Positions 2,797-52,412 of a stretch of DNA of 64,000 bases are shown piece after piece. The stretch lies in assembly GCF_000178115.2 (NCBI RefSeq), contig NC_014828.1, positions 457,501-521,500 of the forward strand, in the 5' to 3' direction. Made by a program: the position numbers and the translations under genes. The stretch is from Ethanoligenens harbinense YUAN-3 (GTDB lineage Bacteria > Bacillota > Clostridia > Oscillospirales > Ethanoligenentaceae). The notes under the pieces were generated by a model. That model was not told the origin of the DNA. It ran no database searches and was given only the letters and a program-made list of their open reading frames with translations. Numbering within the stretch: the stretch's first letter is position 1; every line of letters starts with the position of its first letter.

Positions 2797-5700
2797 TTAT
2801 ATTCCGAGACGTACGGTATGGGTTCTCCCGTCGAGCGGAATGGCCTTCACCTTGTCGCCGTTTACCGTCAGCCCGGGCGCGCCGCCTTTTTTCACCCGCA
2901 GTGAGATGTCGCTCCCGCGCAGGCGCAGGTGGGCGGAAAACCCGTTCCAGTCCGACGGAAGTGAAGGGGATATAGTCAGTTCTTTTGCCCGGATGTGCAG
3001 CCCCAGCAGGTGCTCCAGCACCACGCGGTAATACCAGCCCGCCGCGCCGGTGTACAGGCTCCAGCCGCCGCGCCCTTCGATGGCGAGGTTGGAGGAAATG
3101 TCCCCTGCCATTGCGTAGGGCTCCAGACGGTAAATGCGTGCCTGCCCCGCGTCCAGTGCGCGGCCCACCGGGTTGAGCCATTGCAGGATGCGCCAGGCGT
3201 CGTCCGCCCGTCCGTCGGACAGCAGCCCCAGCGCCGCCCAGACCGCGCCATGCGTGTATTGTCCGCCGTTTTCCCGGATGCCGGGTGGATAAGAGCGGAT
3301 ATAGCCGGGGTTGTGCATCCCGTGATCGAACGGCGGGGTAAACAGTTTGACCAGCTTCAGACGCCCGTCAGCCAGATGTTCCAGCATGGAATCCAGCGCC
3401 TGTCGGCGTCTGCCCGCGTCCGGCATGTCCGCGATGGCGGCAAATGCCTGCGGCAGGATATCGATTTTGCATTCGTCGCAGGTCTTTCCGCCCAGCGGCG
3501 CACCGTCGTCATAGAAACCACGCAGATACCACGCCCCGTCCCAGCAATGCGTGTCCACCGCCTCGCGCAGTGCCTGCGCCCGCGCGGTGTAGGTTTCGGC
3601 GCGCGCATCGTCGTGCATGCCGCGGCAGATGGGGGCGAAGCGGTCGAGCACATGGGCGAGGAACAGCGCCAGCCAAACGCTTTCGCCTTTGCCGCCCGCG
3701 CCGACCAGATTCATGCCGTCGTTCCAGTCGCCCGCACCGAACAGCGGTAGGCCGTGCGCGCCGAAAGCCGATGCGCGCTCGATGGCGCGCACACAGTGCC
3801 CATATACATTTTCCTGCTCGTCCGACCGGCCGGGTGCGAAATACCGGTCACTCTCGGTCTGCTCCAACAGCGGCCCGTCGAGGTAATGGATGACGGTGGC
3901 CAGAACCCGGCTGTCACCGGTCTTTTCGAGATAGTCGCAGACCGTGAGCGGTAACCAGAGCAGGTCGTCCGAGATGCGGGTGCGTACGCCGCGTGCACCG
4001 CCGTCGCACGGGGGAAGCTGGTGCCACCAGTGCATCACGTCGCCTTCGCGGAACTGGTGCGCCGCGCAACGGAAGATATGTGCTTTTACCAGCCGCGGGT
4101 CGAGCAGCAGCGCCGCGCCGCAGTCCTGTAACTGGTCGCGGAAACCCCACGCACCTCCGCATTGGTAAAACCCTGTGCGCCCCAGAATGCGCGCGGACAG
4201 AAATTGCCGCCGCAGTACCGACATCAGCCGATTGAGCGGTTCATCCGGCGTTTCCACCTCGATCTCATCATCCGTATACGGCGGCTGCCCGCGATAGGCC
4301 GGTGCTTGGGACGCGGGAGGAGTGAGCGGCGGATCTGCGGTAGCCATATCCGTATCGGTTGCGGCCGTACCGGTGAGGACGGCGGGCGCGAGGGGCGCAG
4401 CGGCTTCCATTTCGGCAAAAACCGCCGCCGGCACGTGATGTTCGGGCGCAGGAGTCTCCGCGCCGCCCATGTCGTTCGATTCGGGTGTCGTAAGTTGTAA
4501 AGCCATACGCGCGATGTCCAGCGCGGCCTGCTCGCGGGCGCCCCAGCCCAGTGTAAAGGCGAGCGCCTTGCGTTTGCCCGGCTCCAATGTGCCGTGTTGC
4601 ACCAGCGCCGCGCAGGAGCCGGGCGCATGAGCGCCGGCTCCCGACCAGTCGCCCGCAAGGAACGCCGCCCGCCCGGTGACCAGCGCACTTTTTCCCTGTG
4701 CCGCCAGAACCCCCACGCCCGAAACGGTGGCCCATGGGTTGCACAGCAAAACGGCGTCGTTCTGCTGCTGCACGGTCAGGCAGCGCCGCGTGCCCAGATG
4801 TGCACCGCAGACCGGTTCGGTGTAATAGGCGATTTCATAGGGCACGGGGCGGTTCCCGGCGTTGGCCAGCTCCACCGTGAGGGTTTTGGCCATTAGATTG
4901 CCTGGAATATGCACTTGCAAAGAAATGGAGAGTTCTTCCACTTCACAGTCGTATCTCGCTTCGTTCCGCGTAAACGTCACCCGCGCGTTGGCGCAGAGGT
5001 CGTAGATATGCCGCCCCAGGCGCAGCAGTAGCAGTTCGCCCCGGTTGTCGCTTACGGGGTCGTTTAGCCAGGGGGTCAATTTGTTTTCGTGTGCGTTGAC
5101 GGCCCAGGTGCAGCCCAGCGCGCGGTCGGATACCAGCGTGCCGAACGTCTGGTTGGCGAGGATGTGGCACCACGGCGCGGGTGGCGTCTCCTGACCGTGC
5201 GGGATGAGCACATCGCTTCCTACGAAACCGCCCGCATAGAACGGAAATGCGGGCGCGTCGCCGCCAGACGGTTTGGGTGCGCGCAGCGGCGCAGCGGCGT
5301 AGGGTGTGAATGCGGGCCGGGCGGACGGACGCGCGATATGGCAGGCTACCGCCCGCAGCAGGGTGCCGGTCTCCTCCGGGTGGTGGCTGAGGTTGACCAG
5401 ATGCACCCCTCCACGGGCACCGATGAGATAGTCGCTGCCGCAGGTTTTCAGAACCGCCTTGATGCCGTCGGCCTGCGGGCGGGCGTAGTCGCCGCCCTCC
5501 CGGTAGGTGATGGCGAGGTCGCAGGTGATGCCCTGCAGCCGCAGCGCGCGGTGGGTGCGCACATAGGCATCCAGTTGCTCACTGGCTCCGTGGAACGGGA
5601 ACAGGATGAGCGGCAGGTCGCCTGAAATCCCTAAGCTCCACAGGCCCGGCTGACCCATCCGGTTCCTTGCTTTTGCTTCTGCGCGCTCGCTGTCCCCATC

Positions 5701-29238: not shown

Positions 29239-29514
29239 TTACGTGCGGGGCAAGTTAAGTAAATTATCTTTCAAAGATGAATCGGGTGTGGAACGCACAT
29301 ATTTTTCTCCTCGAGAACTGGTCGCCGGGACGATATTGGGGTATGGGTAAATATTCACCTGGATGTTTCCGGGGCGCCCAATAAGATAATTGTGGATATC
29401 TTCTTTTTTGTAATATCCCACTTGTTGGCAACCTGTCAAATAGATACTGTCAATTTCAGTTAATTCGTCGGAGGAGCTGCGACCTGGCTTCATGCGGATT
29501 TTTGTTGCTTGCAT
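29239..29514 (-). CDS. DUF3892 domain protein
   Basis: A 91-residue protein starting MQATKIRMKPG with the DUF3892 pattern. The middle reads LTEIDSIYLTG, YYKKEDIHNYL and VNIYPYPNIVP. The C-terminal KYVRSTPDSSLKDNLLNLP is the diagnostic end. AGAAAGG lies 9 bases upstream of the ATG; the longer open frame is rejected because it lacks a ribosome site. Function unknown; such genes occur in many Firmicutes and often near mobile DNA. Confidence 0.82.
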   Translation of the reverse strand: MQATKIRMKPGRSSSDELTEIDSIYLTGCQQVGYYKKEDIHNYLIGRPGNIQVNIYPYPNIVPATSSRGEKYVRSTPDSSLKDNLLNLPRT

Positions 29515-29623
29515 TTTAATTTTTCCTTTCTGTTGTATGATTTGAAAGGAAAAGGAAATGCCTGTTATGTAACCCCTCTTTTCCAGCACTTTACATAGGA
29601 AAACCATTGCTATTTTGATTTTC

Positions 29624-29661
29624 CTGTGATATCATAAAAATGTATAAGCATGTTATCACAG
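29624..29661. repeat. 8-bp inverted repeat in non-coding DNA
   Basis: CTGTGATA (29624-29631) and TATCACAG (29654-29661) form an inverted repeat around an AT-rich 22-base spacer. It could be an operator of the DUF3892 gene or part of a small RNA. Nothing else supports a function. Confidence 0.4.
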
Positions 29662-29675
29662 ATAGCGTGTTTTCC

Positions 29676-29712
29676 ATGGCAGAGTAGTTGTAATACTCTG
29701 CCATTTTCCTTT
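29676..29712 (+). terminator. Orphan terminator hairpin
   Basis: An 11-bp stem ATGGCAGAGTA (29676-29686) / TACTCTGCCAT (29694-29704) is followed by TTTTCCTTTCC. The T-rich side is on +, but no + strand gene ends here, so it may terminate read-through or an unrecognised small RNA starting after 29515. Confidence 0.6.
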
Positions 29713-29759
29713 CCCTGTGTTTATATCATACAACAGAGCAGGTGGCCTGTCAAGACGAT

Positions 29760-29885
29760 TGTATAAAATATAAAAACCTAAAGGATAATTGATAAGCAAA
29801 ATTGAAGAATGCCAGATTGTAGAGTATAATAGAACATGTCGAGTGGAAAGCTCGTGGATTGAAATAGGTTTTTATATTTTATACA
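29760..29885. mobile_element. 126-bp MITE-like element with 21-bp inverted ends
   Basis: The 21 bases at 29760-29780 (starting TGTATAAAATA) recur as an exact reverse complement at 29865-29885, enclosing an 84-base core. The core carries a good promoter and a single CRISPR-repeat-like sequence. No target-site duplication is obvious and no second copy occurs in the window. It may be a miniature transposable element or a long RNA hairpin. Confidence 0.55.
29802..29830 (+). promoter_or_regulatory. Promoter inside the 126-bp element
   Basis: TTGAAG (29802-29807) and TATAAT (29825-29830) are 17 bases apart. The predicted start point (about 29837) coincides with the first base of the CRISPR-like repeat. 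Confidence 0.7.
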
Positions 29886-29930
29886 TGCTGACAGGGACAG
29901 AAACAGGATGGCTTAAGCCGTCCTGTTTCT
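29838..29930 (+). ncRNA. Candidate small RNA beginning with a solitary type I-C-like CRISPR repeat
   Basis: Bases 29838-29865 begin GTCG and end CGTGGATTGAAAT, the 5' and 3' ends of type I-C CRISPR repeats, with a short CGAG/CTCG stem in the middle. The stem is shorter than in typical 32-base repeats (28 here). A promoter places the transcript start at the repeat. About 35 bases later a 14-bp hairpin (29899-29930, one G-T pair, TTAA loop) could end the RNA, although the T-run after it is poor. No second repeat, spacer array or cas gene is in the window. Solo repeat RNAs are known as RNA anti-CRISPRs and as CRISPR-associated regulators; either role is inference. Confidence 0.45.
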
Positions 29931-42457: not shown

Positions 42458-43870
42458 TCACGAGGTCTTTCCTTTGCTCTTATCTGTTGGTGGCAGTAAA
42501 ATATCTTCCAGCGCGTCGCTGGCGGCTTCCTGCGCGCTCTTAATAGCGTGGCTGTAAATGTTGACTAGTGTGCTGGCCTGCGCATGTCCGGTGCGTGCCT
42601 GCAATGTGCGGATATCTACACCGGCCGCAATCTGTAATGTCGCGAACGTATGCCGTAGGCCGTGAGGCGTGATGTGTTCAAGCTGGTGCTGCTCCAGAAA
42701 ACGATTCATCCAGTAATTGATGGTGTCCGGGTTAATCGGCTTGCCGTCTGCCTGAACAAATAGCCGTTCCTTTTCTCCGTGCCAGCTCTCCCCATACAGC
42801 AGTTTCTGCTTATTCCACCATGCACGGTAAGCGCCGAGCAGTTCAACTACAAAAGCCGGTATTTTGATGGAGCGAATGCTGCTCTCATTTTTCGTCGATT
42901 TTTCTACCACACCTTTCCCGCTCTGATACTGTGAGGCCCGCTCAATATTGATAAGATGCCGTTCAAAGTCTATGTCTGGCCATGACAGGCCGCACAGTTC
43001 CCCCCGGCGTGCACCGGAAAAGAGCAAAAGAATGAGGGCGGCTTTCACGCGAATGTCCGGCTCGTTCAGCAGTAGCGTAAGCAGCGTGTGCGCCTGTTCA
43101 TCGTCCAAATATTTGGCCTCTTTGTGTGCGGCTTTGGGTGCAGTAGCATGCTCGGCGGCCACATTGAACGGAACCAGCCGTTCACGCTTGGCTTTGGCGA
43201 GAATGGCGCTGATGAGCCTGTGATGATGCAAGATCGTTTTATCGGATAATCCGGTATCGCTCATATGAATTGTAAAAACGGCGTCTACTGGCTTGCCCAG
43301 CGCCTTGCAGATGGCCGCTGCCTTTTCAGAACTGATATGTTTTCCACGGGCAGCGGAGCTGATCGTAATAGCAGCCACACCAGCTTGCATAGCTAAAGCG
43401 GCCCGCGTCAGTTTTTGCTTTTTCATGAGAGCATCCAATTTTTCCGATACAGCATAGCTGCCGCGATGGTTAACGCCCGCCTCGGCCAGATTTTTGTAGA
43501 ATGCTTCCAGATGATGCGCTTGCAGCTTATCCAGCCGAATATGCCCAATGGCAGCATTGATGCGTTCTAACATTTCCGTGTACCGTTCTTTGGTCTTAAA
43601 AGCAAGCGACTCGTTTTCAATCCATTCTTTTGCATAGTCGCTGAATCGGGTGGAACCTCCGAAAGCGGTAAGGCCCTGCTTAACCTGCTCTTCAAAAAGA
43701 GTGGACTGTATGTTCAGCTCTTTTTCTTCGGCGGATGGGCGCATACCGGGTTTGGGCTTCCACGTCATGGACTTTACGATCTGGTGGCCGGTGCCGGTTT
43801 CATCCACATAAACGCGAATGAGATAGGCTGTGCTACCGTCCTTATTTTTCCGTTTCGTGATATTTGCCAT
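42458..43870 (-). CDS. int: Tyrosine integrase with an internal Cro/C1-type HTH domain
   Basis: A 470-residue site-specific recombinase. Residues about 1-40 form an arm-type DNA-binding domain (MANITKRKNKDGSTAYLIRV). A SAM-like core-binding domain begins near 75 and is interrupted at about 142-200 by an HTH (SEKLDALMKKQKLTRAALAM, then GVAAITISSAARGKHISS). The catalytic domain follows, with GARRGELCGL (Arg), HGLRHTFATL, TGHAQ and the nucleophile Tyr in VNIYSH. The ATG at 43870 lies inside the end of the repressor gene (29-base overlap), so the two are co-transcribed. It integrates the element, presumably at the adjacent tRNA. Confidence 0.93.
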   Translation of the reverse strand: MANITKRKNKDGSTAYLIRVYVDETGTGHQIVKSMTWKPKPGMRPSAEEKELNIQSTLFEEQVKQGLTAFGGSTRFSDYAKEWIENESLAFKTKERYTEMLERINAAIGHIRLDKLQAHHLEAFYKNLAEAGVNHRGSYAVSEKLDALMKKQKLTRAALAMQAGVAAITISSAARGKHISSEKAAAICKALGKPVDAVFTIHMSDTGLSDKTILHHHRLISAILAKAKRERLVPFNVAAEHATAPKAAHKEAKYLDDEQAHTLLTLLLNEPDIRVKAALILLLFSGARRGELCGLSWPDIDFERHLINIERASQYQSGKGVVEKSTKNESSIRSIKIPAFVVELLGAYRAWWNKQKLLYGESWHGEKERLFVQADGKPINPDTINYWMNRFLEQHQLEHITPHGLRHTFATLQIAAGVDIRTLQARTGHAQASTLVNIYSHAIKSAQEAASDALEDILLPPTDKSKGKTS

Positions 43871-44597
43871 GATCGGTATCCCCTTCCTCCAGATCATCTT
43901 CCAGCAAATCATCCGGGGATTCCGGTTCGCCCTCATAAAAAGCGGGCTTGCGGATGCCCAACGTTTCCATCAGCCATTGTTCCGGCATATCCATCACAAT
44001 GTTGCGGATGGTCGTTTCCGCGCGGTACGCATAGAAATCGGACAATTCCTTGTTGCTGAGAATTTCATAGCCGGTCTGCCGTGCTTCCCGCACAAGTTCC
44101 TGTGAAGCACCGGTCGGCATAGACTGGTCGGCGGTTTCCCGCATCTCCCGGTCGTGCGCCTGCTTATGTTTTTGGATGCTCCCTTGAAGATCGCCCAGAA
44201 ACCGCCAGAAGTTCTTATCCGCCAAGATACGGGAAATGATTTCAGACTGCGTGATACAGGTAGGTTGACTATCCTCGTCCAACTGCTCACGGCGGTAGCT
44301 TTGTAAGGCATGGATAGCGGCATCTGAAAGCCCCAGCGTATCCGCCAAGTCGAAATGCTCCCGTACACGGCTTTCTGTATCGCCGATCAGATATTCATAA
44401 GGCACCTCGAAAAAACGCGCCAGCGCCCGGAAATTGTTGATGTCCGGGATGGTTTTGCCGTCTTTCCACTGCGCCACGGCCTGCCGGGTTACGCCGACAT
44501 AATCCGCCACGTCCTGCTGGGTGTGCCCGGCATTGTCCAACAGCTCCCGCAGGTGCTTTGCGAAGATGCGGTTCTCGTTTTTGCGCTCATCGGCCAT
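43842..44597 (-). CDS. XRE-family repressor
   Basis: A 251-residue regulator. The N-terminal HTH reads FAKHLRELLDNAGHTQQDVADYVGVTRQAVAQWKDGK, and residues about 80-250 form an uncharacterised helical domain ending in an acidic tail. GGAGATGAGCAG precedes the ATG. It is upstream of and overlapping int, and divergent from the excisionase operon. A 17-base palindrome overlaps both promoters (44644-44660), so it probably represses itself and the transfer genes. Confidence 0.88.
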   Translation of the reverse strand: MADERKNENRIFAKHLRELLDNAGHTQQDVADYVGVTRQAVAQWKDGKTIPDINNFRALARFFEVPYEYLIGDTESRVREHFDLADTLGLSDAAIHALQSYRREQLDEDSQPTCITQSEIISRILADKNFWRFLGDLQGSIQKHKQAHDREMRETADQSMPTGASQELVREARQTGYEILSNKELSDFYAYRAETTIRNIVMDMPEQWLMETLGIRKPAFYEGEPESPDDLLEDDLEEGDTDHGKYHETEK

Positions 44598-50730: not shown

Positions 50731-51342
50731 ATCGGCAACAGATAGCTCGCCGGACATTAGGCGGGGTAAGAGAGAATCTCGTAATTCAGCGAGTCGTATG
50801 TTCTCATTCGAGTTGTTAAGGATGATTTCGTAAATAGGAGCGACTTTTTCCTCAAATGAACGGGCTTCAGCGGTAGTTATATCCGGCACAATCTCACTTT
50901 CAAAATCTCTTGTGACGATTGCGTCGAAAACTGCTCCGGTGGCTTTGTGTTTAAGGCTTTCCACGACGTGCTGAGCGAGATGATAAACATAATGTTGTCC
51001 CAAACCTTCAGTCCCGACAAGGGCATAACACGATTGGTTCATTGCCATAGGGCGACCAGCAAGAGCGAGCTTTCCGACAGTACCTCTGGCAGTCAAAAAG
51101 ACTGTGTTGACGGGATAAAGCCGACTGTTGCAGTTGGAAAGGCCTACTTTTGTAAGCGTCTTTTCCGTGGTCAGCGTAAAGATGCCAGAGGCGTCTTTGG
51201 GCGTAAAGAATGGAATCACACCATTCCAAAACGTTTCTGTTCCTGTTTTAGGCGTTCCGCCACTCAAAACCTGAACAACCTCAGTAAAGGGCCTCGATGG
51301 CTCGAAATCCACAAACCATGACTTGAAAATGGCCTGTGCCAT
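50719..51342 (-). pseudogene. hsdS: HsdS C-terminal half (second TRD), inverted silent cassette
   Basis: Reading on the minus strand from inversion site B, the frame gives NHHLEQMAQAIFKSWFVDFE, a TRD (PFTEVVQVLSGGTPKTGTET onwards) and the normal HsdS C-terminus LLPRLMSGELSVADLGR. It lacks an N-terminal half and a ribosome site, so it is silent until inverted. Joined to 50164-50722 it would give a specificity subunit of about 395 residues, the normal length. The frame is intact, so this is a cassette rather than a decayed gene. Confidence 0.85.
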
Positions 51343-51347
51343 CTGCT

Positions 51348-51363
51348 CTAAATGATGATTTAT
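51348..51363 (-). repeat. hsdS inversion site, copy B
   Basis: The reverse complement of copies A and C (16 of 16 bases). It lies at the 5' end of the inverted HsdS half, in the matching reading frame, with GAGCAG (Glu-Gln) following. Confidence 0.85.
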
Positions 51364-51419
51364 TACACTCCTCTTTGCCTGCGCTAACCTCTATATTCTA
51401 TAGAAAGGCAGGAAAAAAT

Positions 51420-52412
51420 ATGAAGGATAAACTGATAACGGAAATTCAGACGTATATGTCTCGAATGTTATCTGTAGCGCAGGTGGAGGAATTGCGGCGA
51501 GTATTGACGCACTGTTTCCATAATGTAGAAATTGTAGAGAAGAAATCCACCGAAAAAGAAGACATTACAGGCAATCCAAAATTACTTGAGATTTTTATCT
51601 CGGCAAAACGTGTGGAAGGGTGCTCTGAAAAATCGCTTAAATATTACGATGCGACCATTCGGCACATGATCGTTGATATTGCAAAACCAGTGAGAGAAAT
51701 TGACACCGGCGATTTGCGTATCTATCTTGCGAACTACCAAAAGTTAAGGAATTCCAGCAAAGTAACCATAGATAATATGCGGCGTATCTTTTCCAGCTTT
51801 TTTGGATGGTTGGAAGATGAAGATTACATACTGAAAAGCCCGGTTCGCCGTATTCATAAAATTAAGACAGAGAAAACAATCAAAGATACATTTTCGGATG
51901 AAGGATTGGAAAAACTTAGGGATGCTTGTGATGAACTTCGCGATTTGGCCATGGTTGACCTGCTTGCCTCGACGGGCATGCGTGTCGGCGAACTGGTACA
52001 GTTAAACCGCGAAGACATGAACTTCCACGAGCGCGAATGTTTGGTACTGGGGAAGGGCGGAAAGGAGCGAATGGTCTATTTTGATGCCCGCACCAAGATT
52101 CATTTGCGTAATTATCTGGACAGCCGGAGCGACGATAACCCGGCGCTGTTTGTATCACTTACAAGTCCGCACGAAAGATTGTTGATAGGTGGCGTGGAAA
52201 CACGCATTCGTGAAATTGGCAAAAATGCCGCATTGCAGAAGGTTCATCCGCACAAGTTCCGACGAACACTGGCCACGCGGGCTATCGACAAGGGTATGCC
52301 TATTGAGCAGGTGCAGCGCCTTCTCGGTCATGTTAAAATAGATACGACCATGCACTATGCAATGGTTAATCAAGAAAATGTAAAAAATTCTCACAGGAAA
52401 TTTATTGGATGA
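51420..52412 (+). CDS. Tyrosine recombinase of the hsdS locus (invertase)
   Basis: A 330-residue phage-integrase family protein. It has a SAM-like core domain (LEIFISAKRVEGCSEKSLKYYDA) and a catalytic domain with STGMRVGELVQL (Arg), GKGGKERMV (Lys loop), HKFRRTLATRAID, LGHVKIDTTMHYAM (His, Tyr nucleophile). It lies between the inverted and downstream hsdS pieces, the position of PsrA/CreX-type recombinases that shuffle hsdS genes. The likely substrates are the 16-bp sites A, B and C. The next gene starts 13 bases after its stop. Confidence 0.92.
   Translation: MKDKLITEIQTYMSRMLSVAQVEELRRVLTHCFHNVEIVEKKSTEKEDITGNPKLLEIFISAKRVEGCSEKSLKYYDATIRHMIVDIAKPVREIDTGDLRIYLANYQKLRNSSKVTIDNMRRIFSSFFGWLEDEDYILKSPVRRIHKIKTEKTIKDTFSDEGLEKLRDACDELRDLAMVDLLASTGMRVGELVQLNREDMNFHERECLVLGKGGKERMVYFDARTKIHLRNYLDSRSDDNPALFVSLTSPHERLLIGGVETRIREIGKNAALQKVHPHKFRRTLATRAIDKGMPIEQVQRLLGHVKIDTTMHYAMVNQENVKNSHRKFIG

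Follow-up and report, generated by a model that had tools for sequence, protein, structure and literature searches.

What is a single CRISPR-like repeat doing under its own promoter, enclosed by an exact inverted repeat, where no array or cas gene was seen nearby? We examined this question for a 64,000-nucleotide stretch of the Ethanoligenens harbinense YUAN-3 chromosome (hereafter the window; positions 457501-521500 of the single contig of 3,008,576 bases). An earlier note, made from the sequence alone, had described a solitary type I-C-like repeat with a TTGAAG-17-TATAAT promoter, a transcription start at the repeat, a 14-bp hairpin downstream and enclosing 21-bp inverted repeats, without array or cas gene. 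It had proposed that the unit encodes either an RNA anti-CRISPR mimicking crRNA or a crRNA-like regulator, carried by a miniature mobile element. We found each of these sequence features to be present, and the observation therefore stands. The interpretation was only partly supported: the type I-C assignment and the alternative of a crRNA-like regulator were right, whereas neither the favored RNA anti-CRISPR nor the miniature mobile element was supported.

The solitary repeat and its host CRISPR system

The 28-mer GTCGAGTGGAAAGCTCGTGGATTGAAAT starts 7 nt after the end of the -10 box, and the downstream hairpin begins about 34 nt after it (Table 1). The unit is far beyond chance, because the repeat pattern occurs only once outside the native array in the 3.0-Mb genome, and the 21-mer of the inverted repeat occurs only as the two arms, even when three mismatches are allowed. 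The absence of type I-C systems from the species had been named beforehand as a condition that would speak against the observation. However, the genome contains, 187 kb away, a complete type I-C operon (cas3-cas5c-cas8c-cas7c-cas4-cas1-cas2), which adjoins a very large array at genome positions 674784 to about 693900. This array has 280 repeats of GTCGCTCTCCACACGGAGAGCGTGGATTGAAAT and 279 spacers, 272 of them distinct and most of them 34-35 nt long. No protospacer that could reveal the native PAM was found for these spacers in the phage collection or the loci examined. The solitary repeat is a short-stem version of the array repeat, with a 5-bp instead of an 8-bp stem. Apart from this copy, the handle preceded by anything but the native stem base occurs nowhere else in the genome. 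A search against Rfam gave nothing above threshold.

Table 1. Coordinates of features in the window and the analyses on which they rest.
Position	Strand	Feature	Basis
29239..29514	-	DUF3892 protein gene (91 aa), probably co-transcribed; candidate repressed effector	Pfam PF13031, E = 4.5e-11; no minus-strand terminator between promoter and gene
29529-29541 and 29725-29737		Second inverted repeat (TCTGTTGTATGAT, 13 bp, exact)	Inverted-repeat search
29591..29704	-	37-codon mini-ORF with strong Shine-Dalgarno sequence (AGGGAAAGGAAA), ATG at 29704; start codon in an 11-bp hairpin with 7-nt loop; candidate CreT-like RNA or leader	Sequence; fold of 29590-29718 (minus)
29725..29753	-	Inferred repressed promoter TTGACA-17-TATGAT (11 of 12 matches), predicted start about 29718; -35 box at protospacer nt 27-32	Consensus scan
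29745..29779	-	Protospacer; 29779-29760 match guide nt 1-20, the rest overlaps the -35 box	Guide-target comparison
29760-29780 and 29865-29885		Exact 21-bp inverted repeat	Inverted-repeat search
29780..29782	-	TTT at the PAM position (TTC in most relatives)	Guide-target comparison
29802..29830	+	Promoter of the crRNA-like RNA (TTGAAG-17-TATAAT), predicted start about 29837	Consensus scan; -10 box 5-7 nt before the repeat in most relatives
29838..29865	+	Degenerate type I-C repeat (psi-repeat), 5-bp stem with GGAAA loop, full 3' handle TGGATTGAAAT	Comparison with the native repeat; fold
29866..29900	+	Psi-spacer (guide); nt 1-20 (29866-29885) match the target perfectly	Guide-target comparison
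29899..29930	+	14-bp hairpin ending the RNA (terminator-like, weak T tract)	Inverted-repeat search; fold
29974		Glycosyltransferase operon	Profile search
42458-43936	-	Tyrosine recombinase gene, possibly marking an integrated element	Profile search
51336-52412	+	Tyrosine recombinase gene, possibly marking an integrated element	Profile search

The inverted repeat reads as a guide and its target

When the unit is read as a CRISPR unit, the inverted repeat abuts the repeat in exact guide register. Nucleotides 1-20 of the spacer (AGGTTTTTATATTTTATACA) are identical to the minus strand beside a TTT at the PAM position, and the 21st base pair of the inverted repeat is merely the last T of the repeat. 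The full protospacer covers the -35 box of a strong divergent promoter on the minus strand. In contrast, the cas3 upstream region of the same genome and 14 kb around the cas operon hold no usable match, the best being 9 of 10 seed bases with a GAC PAM, indicating that this guide does not regulate cas.

Solitary type I-C repeats in other genomes

To test whether this arrangement recurs, we scanned 85,000 species genomes for a -10 box followed by GTCG...GTGGATTGAAA, in a non-exhaustive survey, as well as whole genomes of the order and phylum for short-stem repeats without requiring a promoter. At spacer offset +1 after GTGGATTGAAA, 12 of 35 solitary repeats, the one in the window among them, had a perfect seed (nt 1-5 and 7-11) next to TTC or TTT within 200 bp, against an expectation of 0.003. 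The other offsets from -3 to +5 gave none, and offset +8 gave one. Without requiring a match at nt 6, and allowing two mismatches in nt 1-11, 16 of 24 short-stem solitary repeats from cellular genomes (the window excluded) had a TTC-flanked target within 200 bp, against 0.08 expected. In these 16, mismatches were found at nt 6 in 12, at nt 10 in 5, at nt 12 in 9 and at nt 18 in 12, but at nt 13-16 in only 4 of 64 cells, and the match is lost beyond nt 18. Such a 6-nt rhythm is the footprint of the flipped-out bases in type I Cascade R-loops. Seeds of nt 1-5 and 7-11 are also reported for CreA (PMC8501985). In about ten loci the -35 box lies at protospacer nt 20-28 on the same strand, as it does here at nt 27.

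In nearly all of these loci, by tblastn with the cas genes among other evidence, the solitary repeat lies beside cas genes, mostly in the cas3-cas5c gap, and the targeted promoter appears to be that of cas5c or cas3. These loci (in our numbering L033, L035, L046, L058, L093, L096, L099, L114, L115, L120, L124, L150, L151, L152, L283 and L284) have TTC targets, or TTT in one case, several of them on recognizable cas promoters, and look like a widespread cas-autoregulation element of the type I-C CreR kind. In L058, from Brevibacillus panacihumi, about 500 bp without a clear gene separate the target promoter from cas5c and could hold a CreT-like RNA. Besides the window, the other non-cas case is L086 (positions 3333-3600; Sporosarcina luteola, G786:C1:27333), which lies 2 kb past its type I-C array and has its target in the 5' UTR, between the -10 box and the start codon, of a 62-aa IS3 OrfA-like HTH ORF, making it a separate type I-C CreTA candidate.

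As a control, we examined solitary type I-C repeats in viral contigs, the pool from which RNA anti-CRISPRs (Racrs) come. Only 2 of 115 had such targets (0.18 expected), indicating that a self-target is not a general by-product of solitary repeats. The one viral repeat with an in-register, exact-seed TTC target (L279, position 1144) has it 61 bp upstream, near the end of a phage-like gene and the repeat's own promoter.

The predicted transcript under the targeted promoter

The minus-strand promoter leads to a predicted transcript with a structured leader, a mini-ORF and then the DUF3892 gene, which is probably co-transcribed. The leader has an exceptionally stable predicted fold (-38.7 kcal/mol, compared with -19.3 +/- 3.1 for shuffled sequences; z = -6.2), in which the AUG opens the hairpin stem. 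The characterized Acinetobacter CreT is an RNA toxin that requires a Shine-Dalgarno sequence and an AUG inside a hairpin with a 7-nt loop (PMC10097628). However, the hairpin in the window is also a terminator-like site on the plus strand, and its role is therefore not settled. The right copy of the second inverted repeat is the -10 region of the promoter and the left copy overlaps the ribosome-binding site of DUF3892, possibly forming an operator pair.

DUF3892 is described as having a fold like dsRNA-binding domains and hibernation factors, fused to Min-Wnt effectors proposed to trigger dormancy or suicide on viral infection (PMC12419801). Our own structure prediction for the protein in the window, made without an alignment, was poor (pLDDT 41). 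Searches with PADLOC, PHROGs and the PDB for the two adjacent ORFs returned no informative match, with no defence-related or annotated phage family and one PHROG of unknown function. Relatives of the DUF3892 protein are scattered: one in 388 genomes of the order (L286, 53% identity), with no repeat or target nearby, and 39 plasmids, mainly of Enterococcus, without a CRISPR link, whereas none was found in viral contigs. The module sits in a 750-bp islet of 34-44% GC within a region of about 60% GC, which suggests acquisition.

A model for CRISPR-guided repression

We conclude, with fairly good confidence, that the locus encodes a crRNA-like RNA that turns the host's type I-C Cascade into a repressor of the divergent promoter. 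It is best read as a CRISPR-regulated toxin-antitoxin-like module (CreTA/CrePA type) of subtype I-C, with a DUF3892 protein and/or its leader RNA as the repressed cargo. In this model, the RNA would be processed by Cas5c, as inferred from the retained handle and stem, and would load into the host Cascade, which would occupy the -35 box and block transcription. A match limited to about 20 of 34 nt together with a non-optimal PAM should allow repression but not cleavage by Cas3. When Cascade is lost, or inhibited by an anti-CRISPR, the transcript would be released and may cause dormancy or toxicity. The analysis itself establishes the sequence, the register, the promoter overlap, the native cas genes, and the recurrence and Cascade-like mismatch rhythm of the class. 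Transcription, Cas5c processing, repression and the lack of cleavage are inferences from sequence, although repression has strong support from the relatives. Toxicity of the cargo, for which the leader hairpin and the DUF3892 context are suggestive only, is a further inference that we regard as about as likely as not. Some observations do not fit easily: no homologous copy of the whole module was found in 59 relatives; the PAM is TTT rather than TTC, although one cas-linked relative (L152) also has TTT; the match has no mismatch at nt 6, 12 or 18 and runs to nt 20, longer than in the relatives; the DUF3892 relatives on Enterococcus plasmids and in one genome of the order show no CRISPR link; and the module lies 187 kb from the cas locus, whereas the known CreTA modules lie beside it, a linkage that we consider usual rather than mechanistically necessary.

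A bolder version remains possible, although we hold it less likely than not. A type I-C CRISPR effector might guard the cell in trans from a distant, horizontally acquired islet, with a crRNA-like antitoxin repressing a DUF3892 (dsRBD/HPF-like) protein that acts as a ribosome- or RNA-binding dormancy factor when CRISPR is lost or inhibited. This would be a new protein class of CRISPR-repressed toxin, and type I-C would carry a broad family of single-repeat guide regulators.

Alternative explanations

The alternative that survives best, although unlikely, is the same Cascade-guided repression without toxicity, in which DUF3892 would be an ordinary accessory gene and no addiction or abortive response would follow. 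The DUF3892 relatives on plasmids show no sign of an antitoxin, and most type I-C relatives of this RNA regulate cas genes rather than toxins. On the other hand, the leader resembles that of a proven CreT, DUF3892 is linked to predicted antiviral suicide effectors, and the non-cas uses of such RNAs that we found in the literature are toxin repression (PMC8501985, PMC10097628) and scaRNA, which uses Cas9.

An invertible promoter is very unlikely. In this view, the 21-bp arms would be recombination sites and flipping of the 126-bp segment would switch between the DUF3892 side and the glycosyltransferase operon, for which the exact inverted repeats around a promoter, the downstream glycosyltransferase genes and nine tyrosine recombinase matches in the genome could be invoked. 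However, the right arm starts at the last base of the CRISPR repeat, relatives have the same guide-target relation in direct as well as inverted orientation, and the direct arrangement cannot be inverted. Moreover, no recombinase gene adjoins the segment, and a hairpin follows the RNA before the glycosyltransferase.

Similarly improbable is a Racr that sequesters Cas proteins and blocks type I-C immunity. The solitary repeat behind its own promoter does resemble viral solitary repeat units (PMC10651486), but viral type I-C solitary repeats rarely have nearby targets, whereas this unit has a 20-nt guide-target match in register, a functional guide is not needed for a Racr, and the two adjacent ORFs gave no defence-related or annotated phage family. 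A miniature transposable element that happens to carry a repeat-like sequence, suggested by terminal inverted repeats around a short segment, can hardly be maintained because the ends have no further copies in the genome, no match in 58 other genomes covers them, and guide plus protospacer explain the inverted repeat.

Implications and comparison with known systems

The locus shows that an isolated repeat-like sequence can be read by its target, and spacer register, PAM and the 6-nt mismatch rhythm provide a simple test that separates cellular regulators from viral mimics. The analysis extends CRISPR-guided self-regulation to subtype I-C in many Firmicutes-type genomes and points to DUF3892, a family of unknown function, as a candidate CRISPR-repressed effector. 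If the model is true, losing or inhibiting CRISPR would trigger a response encoded far from the cas genes. CreTA, CreR and CrePA are already known, while the distant, non-cas, DUF3892-bearing arrangement appears to be new. The four CreTA/CreR papers that we searched for subtype I-C do not mention it, although this search did not extend to the most relevant survey (Shmakov 2023, doi 10.1093/nar/gkad495), and an earlier listing of type I-C CreR elements cannot be excluded.

CreTA is described from Haloarcula (I-B), Halobacterium (I-B) and Acinetobacter (I-F) (PMC8501985, PMC9458426, PMC10097628). The module in the window shares with it a degenerate ectopic repeat and a guide partly complementary to a neighboring promoter, and repression by Cascade is inferred by analogy. 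The CreA of H. hispanica likewise has one repeat and ends in a terminator, and the Acinetobacter CreT has a strong Shine-Dalgarno sequence and an AUG inside a hairpin. The module differs in its subtype, its distance from the cas operon, a guide match of 20 nt without gaps (a 10-11 nt seed in archaea), the TTT PAM, the divergent arrangement, a DUF3892 gene following the leader and a toxicity that is only inferred. CreR, the cas-regulating crRNA-like RNA (reviewed in PMC12737573), has the same RNA design, and 15 of the 16 self-targeting solitary repeats lie beside type I-C cas genes, most in the cas3-cas5c gap with a cas promoter as the apparent target. Here, however, the target is not a cas promoter. 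With CrePA, in which CRISPR represses a KilA-N protein toxin (reviewed in PMC12737573), the module shares a protein-coding gene as the candidate repressed cargo, but this cargo is DUF3892 and only presumptively toxic. With Racr (PMC10651486) it shares the solitary repeat unit behind its own promoter, but it has a functional-looking guide with an adjacent target and lies on the chromosome of the host of the cognate CRISPR.
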